Source: Polynucleobacter sp. MWH-HuK1
GTDB lineage: Bacteria; Pseudomonadota; Gammaproteobacteria; Burkholderiales; Burkholderiaceae
Direction of reading: 5' to 3'
Length of the DNA: 64,000 nt
Assembly: GCF_018881815.1 (NCBI RefSeq)
Contig: NZ_JACVPP010000001.1
Span: 431,352 to 495,351, forward strand
Shown one piece after another: positions 28,159 to 32,016 of this stretch. The translations under genes and the position numbers were made by a program. The notes under the pieces are model-generated. The model was not told the origin of the DNA. It saw nothing but the letters and a program-made list of their open reading frames with translations, and ran no database searches. Numbering within the stretch: position 1 is the stretch's first letter; every line of letters begins with the position of its first letter.

Positions 28159-28180
28159 TTAACCTCTTTTCGGATAGAAT
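28151..28180 (+). promoter_or_regulatory. Predicted sigma-70 promoter of metK
   Basis: TTGCTC (28151-28156) and TAGAAT (28175-28180) with an 18-base spacer. Transcription would begin near 28187, just at the first stem of the SAM-II-like element, leaving a structured leader of about 115 bases before metK. Confidence 0.5.
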
Positions 28181-28184
28181 CCAC

Positions 28185-28242
28185 ACATCGCTGAGTTAAG
28201 ACAACTTGCAGGGCGATTCATAAATTCTGCTAAAGCGTCGCC
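28185..28242 (+). promoter_or_regulatory. Probable SAM-II-like riboswitch in the metK leader
   Basis: The leader follows the SAM-II (metA/SAM_alpha) aptamer core in order and spacing. Stem P1 pairs ATCGC (28187-28191) with GCGAT (28213-28217). The loop holds CTGAGTTAAG (28191-28200) and TTGCAG, then ATAAA (28220-28224) and TGCTAAAGC (28228-28236). The pseudoknot pairs GCAG (28208-28211) with CTGC (28227-28230). The alignment uses my memory of the family sequence; no covariance search was run. Downstream, TTCCT (28250-28254) can pair with the ribosome-binding AGGAA (28294-28298). GACAACT (28200-28206) can instead pair with AGTTGTC (28264-28270), so a competing fold exists. Confidence 0.6.
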
Positions 28243-28303
28243 GTTGTGGTTCCTGGCACGTCGAGTTGTCCCAATGATCGTGTTAATTACTAAAGGAATT
28301 GCA

Positions 28304-29470
28304 ATGGCAAATGATTACTTCTTTACCTCAGAATCTGTTTCTGAAGGTCACCCCGATAAAGTAGCAGACCAAATTTCTGATTCGATTCTTGATGCCATCT
28401 TGGCTCAAGACCCAACTGCACGTGTTGCAGCAGAAACATTGTGCAACACTGGCTTAGTAGTTTTGGCTGGTGAAATCACTACTAACGCAAACGTTGATTA
28501 CATTCAAGTTGCTCGCAATACTTTGCGTGAAATTGGTTACGACAATACTGATTACGGCATCGACTACAAGGGTTGTGCAGTATTAGTTGCTTACGACAAG
28601 CAAAGTCCTGATATCGCTCAGGGCGTTGATAAGGCTCATGATGATGGCTTGGATCAAGGCGCTGGTGACCAAGGCTTGATGTTTGGCTACGCTTGTGATG
28701 AGACTGCAGAGCTCATGCCTTTGCCAATTCATTTGTCACATCGTTTGGTTGAGCGTCAATCCCAATTGCGCCGTGATGGCCGTTTGAATTGGTTACGTCC
28801 TGATGCAAAGTCACAAGTGACATTGCGTTATGTAGACGGCAAACCTGACTCTATCGATACAGTTGTGTTATCTACTCAGCATGATGAAGATATTTCTCTC
28901 GAGAAATTGCGCGAAGCAGTGATCGAAGAAATCATCAAACCAGTCTTGCCTAAGCATTTGATCAAAGGCGCTATCAGCTTCTTGGTGAACCCAACTGGCC
29001 GTTTCGTTATCGGCGGTCCACAAGGCGATTGCGGTTTAACTGGGCGCAAAATTATTGTGGATACCTACGGCGGTGCAGCTCCTCACGGTGGCGGTGCATT
29101 CTCTGGTAAAGACCCATCTAAGGTTGACCGTTCTGCCGCATACGCTGGCCGTTATGTTGCAAAGAACGTGGTTGCTGCAGGTTTAGCAAGTAAGTGCTTG
29201 ATTCAGATTTCTTATGCGATTGGTGTTGCTAAGCCAACTTCAGTAATGGTGAGCACATTCGGCACAGGCAAGATTTCCGATGAGAAGATTGCTGAATTAG
29301 TTTCAGAGCATTTTGACTTGCGTCCAAAAGGCATTGTGAAGATGCTCAACCTCTTGCGCCCAATTTACAAGAAGACAGCTGCATACGGCCACTTTGGTCG
29401 TGAGGAGCCAGAATTTGCTTGGGAGCAAACAGACAAGGCAGCTGCATTACGTGCCGCAGCAGGTCTATAA
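28304..29470 (+). CDS. metK: S-adenosylmethionine synthase
   Basis: Makes SAM from methionine and ATP. 388 residues starting [20 protein letters not shown], with [12 protein letters not shown], the flexible loop [12 protein letters not shown], and [20 protein letters not shown] as the ATP/phosphate motif. The frame remains open 60 bases upstream, but the ATG at 28304 behind AAAGGAA matches the family start. It begins a methyl-cycle cluster: metK, ahcY, metF. Confidence 0.97.
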
Positions 29471-29508
29471 GTAGGAAATACGCAGTTTGTAGGTATATTG
29501 AGGCGAAA

Positions 29509-29538
29509 TATGCCGTAATTGTTTACAATTACGGCATA
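29509..29538 (+). terminator. 13-bp perfect hairpin after metK
   Basis: TATGCCGTAATTG, loop TTTA, CAATTACGGCATA. There is no U-run after it, so classic intrinsic termination is doubtful. It abuts the first stem of the SAH riboswitch and may separate metK transcripts from the ahcY leader or protect the mRNA end. Confidence 0.5.
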
Positions 29539-29637
29539 CCTTCAAGGAGCGTTGCAAGGAATGCTGAGACCCAGCACTTCCCCAGGCTTGAAGGGAGTGA
29601 ATTCCTAATCGGAATTTGCTAATTGCAACCGCGCTCG
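29539..29637 (+). promoter_or_regulatory. SAH riboswitch upstream of ahcY
   Basis: Matches the known S-adenosylhomocysteine aptamer of beta- and gammaproteobacteria. P1 pairs CCTTCAAG (29539-29546) with CTTGAAGG (29587-29594). The conserved GGAGCGTTGCAAGG follows, then a short inner hairpin (TGCTG/CAGCA) and CCCAGGCTTG. A variable hairpin (AATTCC/GGAATT) precedes the closing pseudoknot strand CGCTC (29632-29636), which pairs with GAGCG (29547-29551). The family senses SAH and turns on SAH hydrolase, exactly the gene that follows. Confidence 0.88.
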
Positions 29638-29698
29638 CTAACCCATGATTCAATGGCTAGCGAGTTTCTACTCCAGCATTGGATCTATTTAGCTGGAG
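29634..29698 (+). promoter_or_regulatory. Expression platform of the SAH riboswitch: competing hairpins at the ahcY ribosome-binding site
   Basis: CTCGCTA (29634-29640) can pair with TAGCGAG (29658-29664), extended by CCAT/ATGG, but its first bases are also the aptamer's pseudoknot strand. CTCCAGC (29671-29677) pairs with GCTGGAG (29692-29698), hiding the GGAG ribosome-binding site. GAGT (29661-29664 region) can pair with ACTC (29670-29673), which would break that hiding stem. SAH binding would therefore open the ribosome-binding site (inference). Confidence 0.6.
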
Positions 29699-29703
29699 CA
29701 TTA

Positions 29704-31149
29704 ATGAATACCGTTTCTGATTTAAATAACTTTGTAGCAACTCGTTGCGCAATTGCTGATATCACTTTGGCTGACTTTGGCCGTAAAGAAATTGCGATTG
29801 CTGAAACTGAGATGCCTGGCTTGATTGCTATTCGTGATGAGTTTGCCGCTCAACAACCATTACGCGGTGCACGCATCACTGGTTCATTGCATATGACCAT
29901 TCAAACTGCGGTGTTGATCGAGACGCTTGAGGCACTTGGTGCTGAAGTGCAATGGGCATCTTGCAATATTTTCTCTACACAAGATCACGCTGCTGCTGCA
30001 ATTGCTGCAAATGGCACTCCTGTATTTGCGATCAAGGGTGAAACCCTCGAGCAGTACTGGGACTTTACCCATCGTATTTTTGAATGGGCTGATGGCGGTT
30101 ACACCAATATGATTTTGGATGACGGTGGAGATGCTACTTTGTTGTTGCATCTTGGTGCTCGCGCTGAGAAAGATCAAGCCTGCTTGAGCCACCCAACAAG
30201 CGAAGAAGAAACCATTTTGTTCGCAGCCATTAAGAAGAAATTGGCACAAGATCCTACTTGGTACTCAACACGCTTGGAAAAAGTAAAGGGTGTTACAGAA
30301 GAAACTACTACAGGTGTACATCGCTTGTATCAAATGTTTGCCAAGGGTGATTTGAAGTTCCCGGCAATCAACGTAAATGACTCTGTTACTAAGAGTAAGT
30401 TCGACAACCTCTACGGTTGTCGCGAGTCTTTGGTTGATGCAATCAAACGCGCTACTGACGTGATGGTTGCCGGTAAGGTTGCGGTAGTTTGTGGCTACGG
30501 CGATGTGGGTAAGGGCTCTGCACAAGCGTTGCGTGCTTTATCTGCTCAAGTGTGGGTAACTGAAGTTGATCCAATTTGTGCATTGCAAGCTGCGATGGAA
30601 GGTTACCGTGTTGTAACTATGGACTACGCTGCTGACAAAGCAGATATTTTTGTTTCTGCAACCGGTAACTACCATGTGATTACACATGACCATATGGTAA
30701 AGATGAAAGATCAGGCGATCGTTTGTAACATCGGTCACTTTGATAATGAAATCGATGTAGCTGGTATTGAAAAATATAAGTGGGAAGAAATTAAGCCACA
30801 AGTAGATCACGTGATTTTCCCAGCAGCGAATGGCATGCCAGAAAAGCGCTTGATTATTTTGGCTAAGGGCCGTTTGGTGAACTTGGGTTGTGGTACAGGC
30901 CACCCTTCTTACGTAATGAGCTCTTCATTTGCAAATCAAGTGATTGCTCAGATCGAGTTATGGAATGCGGTTGGCACCAATAAATACCCAGTCGGTGTTT
31001 ACACGCTGCCCAAGCATTTAGATGAGAAAGTGGCTCGTTTGCAGTTGAAGAAACTCAATGCGCAGCTAACGGTATTGTCTGATCAGCAGGCCGCTTACAT
31101 TGGCGTAACCAAGGAAGGCCCATACAAGGCCGACCACTATCGCTATTAA
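29704..31149 (+). CDS. ahcY: Adenosylhomocysteinase (SAH hydrolase)
   Basis: Splits SAH into homocysteine and adenosine, removing the product inhibitor of SAM-dependent methylation. 481 residues: [17 protein letters not shown], the substrate segment [17 protein letters not shown]-binding [29 protein letters not shown], and the C-terminal ending in KADHYRY. The frame is open further upstream (ATGs at 29653 and earlier) but the conserved domain and the GGAG at 29695 support the ATG at 29704. Preceded by an SAH riboswitch and followed by metF. Confidence 0.97.
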
Positions 31150-31185: not shown

Positions 31186-32016
31186 ATGGAATTAAGCGTC
31201 GAATTCTTTCCTCCAAAAACACCTGAAGGTGAGAGTAAGTTGCATCTTGTGCGCGAGCGTTTTTCTGAAACGCTTAAGCCCACGTTTTATTCCGTGACCT
31301 TTGGTGCCGGTGGCTCTACACAGTCTGGCACTTTAAAAGTGGTGAGTGACATTCATGCTGCTGGTGCAGCAGTTGCTCCTCACTTATCTTGTGTTGGTAG
31401 CTCACGTGAAAGCGTGCGCGAGATGCTCAAGCAATATCAAGCCTTGGGCGTTAAACGCATTGTGGCCTTGCGTGGCGATTTACCTTCAGGCATGGGTCAG
31501 TATGGTGAGTTTCATCATGCTAATGAATTGGTGGAATTTATTCGCGCAGAAACAGGCGATTGGTTTCATATTGATGTTGCTGCATATCCAGAGACGCATC
31601 CACAGGCAAAGTCACCGGCTAGCGATGTGGATTTCTTTGTGCAAAAAATGAAGGCGGGCGCGAACTCTGCGGTCACCCAGTACTTTTATAACAGTGACGC
31701 CTACTTCCGTTTTGTAGATGAGGCATATGATCAGGGTGTAACTCAGCCTATCATTGCAGGCATTATGCCGATTACTAATAGCAGCCAGTTATTACGATTC
31801 TCGGATGCATGCGGCGCAGAAATTCCACGCTGGATTCGTTTGCGTCTTCAATCATATGGTGATGACATTGCCTCTATTCGTGCATTTGGCGAAGAGGTAG
31901 TGACTGACTTGTGTGACCAGCTATTGACTGCTGGCGCACCTGGAATTCATTTCTATTCGCTAAATCAGGCTGATGCTGTTTTGGCTATTGCTGAAAACCT
32001 AGATTTAACAAAATAA
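31186..32016 (+). CDS. metF: 5,10-methylenetetrahydrofolate reductase
   Basis: FAD-dependent enzyme supplying methyl-THF to methionine synthase. 276 residues: ELSVEFFPPKTPEGE at the start, VTFGAGGST, CVGSSRESVREML, ALRGDLPSG, and GANSAVTQYFYN with PIIAGIMPIT. Thirty-six bases after ahcY, so very likely co-transcribed in the metK-ahcY-metF cluster, and convergent with the 5-formyl-THF cyclo-ligase gene. Confidence 0.96.
   Translation: MELSVEFFPPKTPEGESKLHLVRERFSETLKPTFYSVTFGAGGSTQSGTLKVVSDIHAAGAAVAPHLSCVGSSRESVREMLKQYQALGVKRIVALRGDLPSGMGQYGEFHHANELVEFIRAETGDWFHIDVAAYPETHPQAKSPASDVDFFVQKMKAGANSAVTQYFYNSDAYFRFVDEAYDQGVTQPIIAGIMPITNSSQLLRFSDACGAEIPRWIRLRLQSYGDDIASIRAFGEEVVTDLCDQLLTAGAPGIHFYSLNQADAVLAIAENLDLTK

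Follow-up and report, generated by a model that had tools for sequence, protein, structure and literature searches.

A SAM-II-like element before metK and an ordinary SAH riboswitch before ahcY at one locus in Polynucleobacter

Introduction

How is metK regulated in betaproteobacteria? A 2014 survey of about 200 proteobacterial genomes (PMC4239095) placed SAH riboswitches on ahcY in these bacteria and left metK under no known regulator, a directed search for one being described there as 'unsuccessful'. The same survey assigned SAM_alpha, that is SAM-II, to the Rhizobiales and Rhodobacterales only. SAM-II had been reported from betaproteobacteria in 2007 (PMC2258182) and is listed for the Alpha-, Beta- and Gammaproteobacteria in PMC2704228. 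Since both SAM-II and SAH riboswitches are already known in betaproteobacteria, what is new below is a variant found before metK, the two classes as such being on record.

The question is raised here by a stretch of 64,000 nucleotides from Polynucleobacter sp. MWH-HuK1 (Burkholderiales), referred to below as the window. A first-pass annotation, made from the letters of the window, proposed a SAM-II-like aptamer in the metK leader and an SAH riboswitch in the leader of the neighbouring gene ahcY, with SAM expected to repress the gene that makes it and SAH to induce the gene that removes it.

Gene order and the SAH riboswitch

Profile matches in the window give the order metK, SAH riboswitch, ahcY and metF on the forward strand (Table 1). 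The ahcY leader is a standard SAH riboswitch of the kind expected in a betaproteobacterium, as it exceeds the gathering score of RF01057 and lies upstream of ahcY; it is a normal member of its family, about which nothing is notable. This half of the first-pass proposal, including the Rfam check that came with it, was thus confirmed. RF01057 is found above its cut-off in 58 of the 61 genus genomes, and in all 56 that carry both features on one contig the switch follows the end of the MetK match by 12–95 nt on the same strand, so that the proposed neighbourhood of the two leaders holds across the genus genomes sampled; the other two genomes are one without a MetK match (G021) and one in which metK and the switch fall on different contigs (G052). 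Outside the genus, the SAH riboswitch is also present in 24 of 25 other Burkholderiales genomes with the metK element described below, and it lies 15–108 nt behind metK in G092, G075, G081 and G089. MetK itself was found in 118 of the 121 genomes searched.

Table 1. Features of the metK, ahcY and metF locus, in window coordinates
Feature	Position	Strand	Basis or remark
Predicted -10 element, TAGAAT	28175..28180	+	read from the sequence; the start would be near 28187, the first P1 base
SAM-II-like aptamer, metK leader	28185..28242	+	R1, 78.3 bits (the window is itself in the R1 training set, A1); RF00521, 14.2 bits; covariation
P1 5' strand	28187..28192	+	pairs with 28212-28217
Position 10 (SAM-II numbering)	28195	+	G in place of the SAM-II U
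P2 pseudoknot 5' strand, lower part	28200..28202	+	pairs with 28237-28239
P2 pseudoknot 5' strand, ligand part	28206..28211	+	pairs with 28227-28230 and 28232-28233
P1 3' strand	28212..28217	+	pairs with 28187-28192; covariation
P2 3' strand	28227..28239	+	28231 unpaired; GCUAAA ligand motif at 28229-28234; contacts U44, A45 and A47 (PMC3764141)
Anti-ribosome-site strand	28240..28260	+	28240-28254 with 28294-28308 (15 bp); 28255-28260 with 28279-28284 (6 bp)
Anti-aptamer segment CGAGUUGUC	28262..28270	+	complementary to 28200-28208
Sequestering helix 3' strand	28294..28308	+	covers most of the AAGGA ribosome site (28293-28297) and the metK start codon (28304)
metK, methionine adenosyltransferase	28304..29470	+	TIGR01034, 612 bits (cut-off 309.4)
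SAH riboswitch, ahcY leader	29538..29643	+	RF01057, 48.5 bits (gathering score 37), E 6.7e-6 (whole window)
ahcY, adenosylhomocysteinase	29704..31149	+	TIGR00936, 580 bits (cut-off 497.6)
metF, methylenetetrahydrofolate reductase	31186..32016	+	TIGR00676, 313.3 bits (cut-off 293.7)

The metK leader and the Rfam models

The metK leader is a different matter. The Rfam SAM-II model (RF00521) aligns to it in the same register, at 28178-28253, with 14.2 bits against a gathering score of 36 (E 0.56), so that the site is not significant by Rfam; taken by the refutation test that the first-pass annotation had set for itself, namely the lack of a significant covariance-model hit, the SAM-II part of its claim would fail. 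The site is absent among the 16 RF00521 matches listed in the organism's own genome at E ≤10 (150 of 421 first-look candidates scored), none of which exceeds the cut-off. A scan of 20 relatives at E ≤1, one of which (L089) carries no core, gave a single match; it coincides with the L048 metK aptamer in position and strand and lies below the cut-off (20.8 bits, E 0.26). Other Rfam families, SAM-V and RF01727 among them, have no match listed on the metK leader at E ≤10, and a likeness between GGUUCCUGGCACG and the core of the SAM/SAH riboswitch was considered and set aside as RF01727 did not match. Rfam by itself does not settle the nature of the metK element, which is taken up by comparison below.

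Conservation of the core among relatives

For this comparison the regions upstream of 100 metK genes were collected, 60 from the same genus and 40 from other Burkholderiales families, the window making up 61 genus leaders. A core expression, G-N-[GU]-UUA ... UUGC ... GCUAAA, matches all 61 genus leaders and 11 of the 40 leaders from other families, being absent from the remaining 29, and occurs in 13 of 5050 dinucleotide-shuffled leaders. L162 and L170 have no core by the expression used.

A model built from 17 metK elements, R1, extends the range. It gives one match in the organism's own genome and at least one in 302 of 399 Burkholderiales genomes, in 133 of 158 genera (E ≤0.01), the matches lying before metK and other targets; in the wider class it matches 154 of 369 genomes at E ≤0.001, three of these belonging to the organism's own order and not all matches being at metK. 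R1 also provides a bridge to SAM-II proper, to which the weak RF00521 match at L048 adds. In G120, known from matches only, the same element is matched by R1 and by RF00521 above its cut-off (36.2 bits), this being the one Burkholderiales RF00521 match above cut-off among the matches listed. Conversely, of 18 RF00521 loci given to R1 out of 30 fetched, 10 are matched at their known site with E values of 0.001 to 0.1; six further loci in this test were chosen by pattern and are not independent.

Some of the elements found by R1 stand before genes of other kinds. One genome (G711) has 10 R1 matches, many of them paired about 100 nt apart, and at the one of its loci that was retrieved (L179) the element is followed by the gene of a small protein containing a RelA/SpoT-like stretch. 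At L137, L138, L168 and L172, elements of the superfamily precede related proteins of 477-494 amino acids, of which that of L137 has no NCBIfam match at E ≤1e-5; L167 has a similar-looking protein fragment with, by eye, a P-loop-like GRSGTGKT.

A covarying pseudoknot

The metK element forms, by comparison, the H-type pseudoknot of SAM-II with its two helices P1 and P2. When 55 metK elements are aligned with R1 (alignment A2), 95.3% of the cells in P1 and P2 are paired, 9 of the 15 pairs show changes on both sides, and 75 double-change cells are observed against 25.2 in shuffles; sliding the partner strand by 1-3 columns leaves 34.6-48.6% paired. In P1 a double change occurs at each of the six pairs (at three of them in one sequence only) and 90.9% of cells are paired, a count that keeps at least four rows standing one base off register in this helix (L090, L095, L096 and L134) and three whose 3' strand looks misplaced (L254, L085 and L083). 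Lower P2 is paired in 98.8% of cells, and one of its three pairs swaps between GC and AU (47 GC, 5 AU, 1 GU). The ligand part of P2 is paired in 98.1%; its two outer pairs, beside GCUAAA, covary (AG/CU, GG/CC, GA/UC), and its four ligand-layer pairs are invariant and for that reason uninformative. As R1 holds P1 only, the support for P2 is not a product of fitting. The idea that the SAM-II likeness arose by chance could draw on the Rfam score, which lies within the noise of the organism's own genome, but it is refuted by the covariation of P1 and P2 and by the frequency of the core in real leaders as against shuffled ones, and its probability is negligible. The SAM-II-like aptamer that had been suggested for metK is therefore borne out by the core, the covariation and the ligand contacts described next, and the claim as a whole comes out divided: the pseudoknot, the SAH switch and, as an expectation from sequence, the opposite logic of the pair all stand, with the Rfam SAM-II test and an invariant base of the class on the other side.

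Several aptamers carry additions to this fold. Those of L077, L244, L146, L269 and L281 appear by eye to have additional hairpins, placed either within the P2 loop or in the stretch from P1 to GCUAAA, reminiscent of the long-loop variants of SAM-II and SAM-V, and the loop of a genus-mate (L021) contains a short tandem duplication, GUUAAGACAA.

Ligand contacts and position 10

In SAM-II the ligand is contacted by U11, U21 and A45, which form a triple at the sulfonium, by U44 at the adenine, by A47 at the methionine end and by G22; U10-U12, U20-C23 and G42-A47 are completely conserved (PMC3764141). All six contacts (U11, U21, G22, U44, A45 and A47) are kept in the window and throughout the 61 genus leaders. 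As MetK homology was the basis on which these leaders were collected, the contact letters were not forced by selection there; in the sets from outside the genus these letters are partly forced, being part of the search expression. A G-G or A-A pair in the SAM-II loop had been predicted from mutual information (PMC2258182), and if this is equated with positions 13 and 18, a mapping of our own, it is retained in 209 of 218 distinct elements (A/A in 114, G/G in 95 and other combinations in 9), the window having A/A.

The window departs from the fully conserved bases only at position 10, where SAM-II has an invariant U and the window a G. G10 is found in 71/72, 24/24 and 21/21 metK elements in three partly overlapping sets, as against U10 in 29 of 29 parsed RF00521 members (top-scoring sequences from other classes of the phylum, presumably alphaproteobacteria, many near-identical; the unparsed L203 was left out). 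The element is accordingly called SAM-II-like, and not a member of SAM-II, because its Rfam score lies below the gathering score and U10 is replaced.

The base at position 10 goes with the downstream gene. A pattern scan of named genomes gave at least 120 stretches, resolved into at least 80 loci and at least 82 elements, with genes assigned by BLAST to reference proteins. Among the matches listed, the 21 elements that precede metK are all G10, and the 61 that do not comprise 57 U10 and four G10 elements (L230, L274, L286 and L287b, L286 having almost no downstream sequence); the association gives Fisher p < 1e-15, a statistic that ignores common descent. Three apparent A10 elements (L144, L150 and L161) are parse artefacts and were left out of the contrast. 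U10 elements precede metZ, a metH fragment and MetX-like genes, among others, and are matched by R1 even though that model was trained on metK elements only. A further 20 R1 matches include 16 before metK, of which 11 are G10 and five U10. An obligatory G10 at metK was considered and dropped, since one genus has U10 metK elements; G10 marks metK strongly, yet is not required. These U10 metK elements (L343-L347 and L070) belong to one Burkholderiales genus and vary in the bases where the GUC partner of lower P2 normally stands, so that their switch may be built differently. Nor is the G10 form confined to Burkholderiales, because a G10/A13-type element occurs in one Pelagibacteraceae genome (L230), where the gene behind it shares 34% identity with the metZ reference.

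At the place of position 10, SAM-V has a base that forms a hydrogen bond with the U paired to the SAM adenine (PMC6061858), and the replacement of U10, which touches the adenine-reading U44, is the ground for supposing that the fold is SAM-II-like and that the metK subclass has a shifted ligand preference or a strongly altered affinity. The tracking of the gene by G10 (21 of 25 G10 elements precede metK, as against none of 57 U10 elements, among the matches listed in the named sample) and the tandem occurrence of G10 and U10 elements before one transporter operon argue in its favour. However, the named contacts to the adenine, the sulfonium and the aminoacyl group are kept, one genus uses U10 at metK, some named loci end soon downstream, and the metK elements may share a single ancestor, in which case the association would not represent many independent events; on this balance such a shift seems quite unlikely. 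A broader form of the idea, in which the metK elements (G10, A13/A18) would be a functionally distinct subclass of a SAM-II superfamily with retuned affinity or specificity and the G10/U10 tandems a two-input sensor, is likewise doubtful. The favoured reading remains that the metK element responds to SAM as SAM-II does.

The tandems stand before a MATE efflux transporter at L158/L126 (G187), L148/L140 (G410) and L149/L144 (G125), with a U10-type element first and then either a G10 element with GAGUUAA (L126 and L140) or one with the related CAAUUAA (L144). The transporter behind L144 matches TIGR00797, and a small open reading frame starting MYDC or MFDC often lies in between, as also at L354, L355 and L357. 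It is possible that these tandems act as a metabolite logic gate.

The expression platform of the metK leader

In 42 of 61 genus leaders P1 is preceded, at a distance of exactly 6 nt, by a TANNNT motif, compared with 110 of 3050 shuffled 24-mers, and the element reads TAGAAT or TAAAAT in 45 of the 61. A consensus promoter scan lists no promoter at the metK leader, and the -10 element thus stays a prediction. Two terminator-like sites were found in the window, neither in a leader, and control of translation is therefore preferred to control of transcription.

The sequence past the aptamer is predicted to fold into a helix that covers the ribosome site. In the window this region has a fold z of -4.37 and a ribosome-site pairing probability of 0.95; the whole leader including the aptamer is mildly unusual (z -1.83), so that the signal sits past the aptamer. 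Across 41 non-redundant metK leaders, drawn from 116 (L272 was left out as its start was not found), the mean z past the aptamer is -2.25, with 40 below 0, and the ribosome site is paired with a probability above 0.5 in 36, by way of quite different sequences. In contrast, 29 metK leaders without the aptamer give a mean z of 0.06 with the site covered in 15 when cut to the same 70 nt length, and -0.30 with 17 covered at 85 nt. A helix that is this strong by itself resembles protein-bound leaders and thermometers, and the leader might conceivably be a structured element controlling translation whose signal is a protein, temperature or the ribosome in place of a small molecule. The helix sequences vary, though, whilst the most conserved bases include the SAM contacts of SAM-II, and this makes an element of that sort very unlikely.

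A second conserved segment could connect the aptamer to the helix. GUUGUC, behind GGCACG or a close form, lies past the aptamer in all 61 genus leaders, where it complements the loop sequence GACAAC, and is found in one of 47 leaders outside the genus; nine of 55 leaders first classed as 'other' have it, eight of these being genus loci and the ninth L256. In leaders of other families the complementarity is instead to the aptamer's 3' strand, through a segment of the kind GGUAACG or CUGCGAC, a signal that is modest against shuffles (mean z -0.95, 21 of 41 below -1, the window at -0.69, with the segment of L261 off register).

Predicted folds of the nascent RNA contain the anti-aptamer pairing when the transcript ends at 28270, 28280, 28290 or 28300, not when it ends at 28262, and become the OFF hairpin at 28310. 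The minimum-energy fold at full length is this OFF hairpin even without ligand (-37.4 kcal/mol), as compared with -25.8 for the best anti-aptamer fold at transcript end 28300 and -13.4 for a hand-drawn ON form. An equilibrium switch was for this reason dropped, and a kinetic switch is proposed because the full-length fold is OFF by itself.

Proposed mechanism

In the likeliest account, which we hold with good confidence, a SAM-II family variant in the metK leader represses metK translation at high SAM, and the ahcY leader is an ordinary SAH ON switch. SAM would stabilise the P1/P2 pseudoknot, locking 28200-28211 and 28227-28239, so that 28240-28260 would be available for pairing with the metK ribosome site and start codon and the gene would be OFF. 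Without SAM, the loop strand 28200-28208 would pair with CGAGUUGUC as the RNA is being made; this would disrupt the aptamer and enclose the anti-ribosome-site strand during ribosome loading, so that metK would be ON. As SAH accumulates, ahcY would be turned on and, behind it, probably metF as well.

Comparative sequence evidence supports the fold with its covariation, the retained ligand contacts, the ribosome-site helix, the anti-aptamer segment of the genus and the synteny; from these we infer the identity of the ligand as SAM, the direction in which control runs, the kinetic order of events and any joint control of the SAM/SAH ratio. On the same evidence, the metK element, next to an ordinary SAH switch, is a SAM-II family variant that is real and widespread, and there is good support for the view that it probably works in the manner of SAM-II.

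Relation to known systems

With SAM-II (SAM_alpha, RF00521) the metK element shares the H-type pseudoknot, the GA.UU / UUGC / GCUAAA core, the SAM contacts, the homopurine pair at 13/18 and the link to methionine-cycle genes. It differs from it in scoring below the Rfam cut-off, in G10, in preceding metK and in a P2 that is longer by the two covarying pairs beside GCUAAA. Its predicted platform is translational, with a ribosome-site helix of its own, unlike most SAM-II riboswitches, which are transcriptional (PMC6061858, PMC2258182); translational control by a SAM-II switch has been described (PMC9373788). SAM-V, a translational OFF switch, has the pseudoknot and pocket of SAM-II (PMC6061858), and these it has in common with the metK element, on which, as noted above, its Rfam model has no listed match. 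The SAM/SAH riboswitch (RF01727) on metK of Rhodobacterales and SAM-Chlorobi on metK-ahcY operons (PMC2864571) occupy comparable positions, but they are other sequence families, again with no match listed on the metK leader at E ≤10.

A further case is the 'metXZ' element of the 2014 survey (Leyn 2014, PMC4239095). It is a pseudoknot leader with six conserved regions, pairing 1-4 and 2-6, and a terminator before metX or metZ, and the U10 elements that precede metZ and MetX-like genes fit this description, by which the two were compared; U10 elements also precede metH. Like the metK element it is a conserved pseudoknot leader of the same bacteria, but in the parts of the survey available it is described before metX and metZ only, with terminators, is not recognised as SAM-II and is not reported at metK. 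If the U10 elements are metXZ, as their fit to the description may suggest, metXZ would be a relative of SAM-II. A search for structured RNAs in Polynucleobacter necessarius (PMC8632094) does not mention metK in its main text. In the literature examined, which takes in few subscription papers, no report was found of a SAM-II-type leader on a betaproteobacterial metK, nor of its pairing with an SAH switch on ahcY, in agreement with the first-pass annotation, which was aware of no such description in a betaproteobacterium.

Implications

R1 matches many Burkholderiales genomes in which the Rfam model seldom reaches its cut-off (among the matches listed), and this suggests that relatives of SAM-II in beta- and gammaproteobacteria have been under-counted. 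The locus brings together, within a short distance, a predicted OFF switch for SAM and a predicted ON switch for SAH, which could be studied jointly. For the regulation of metK in betaproteobacteria, unexplained in the survey (PMC4239095), it provides a concrete candidate element.
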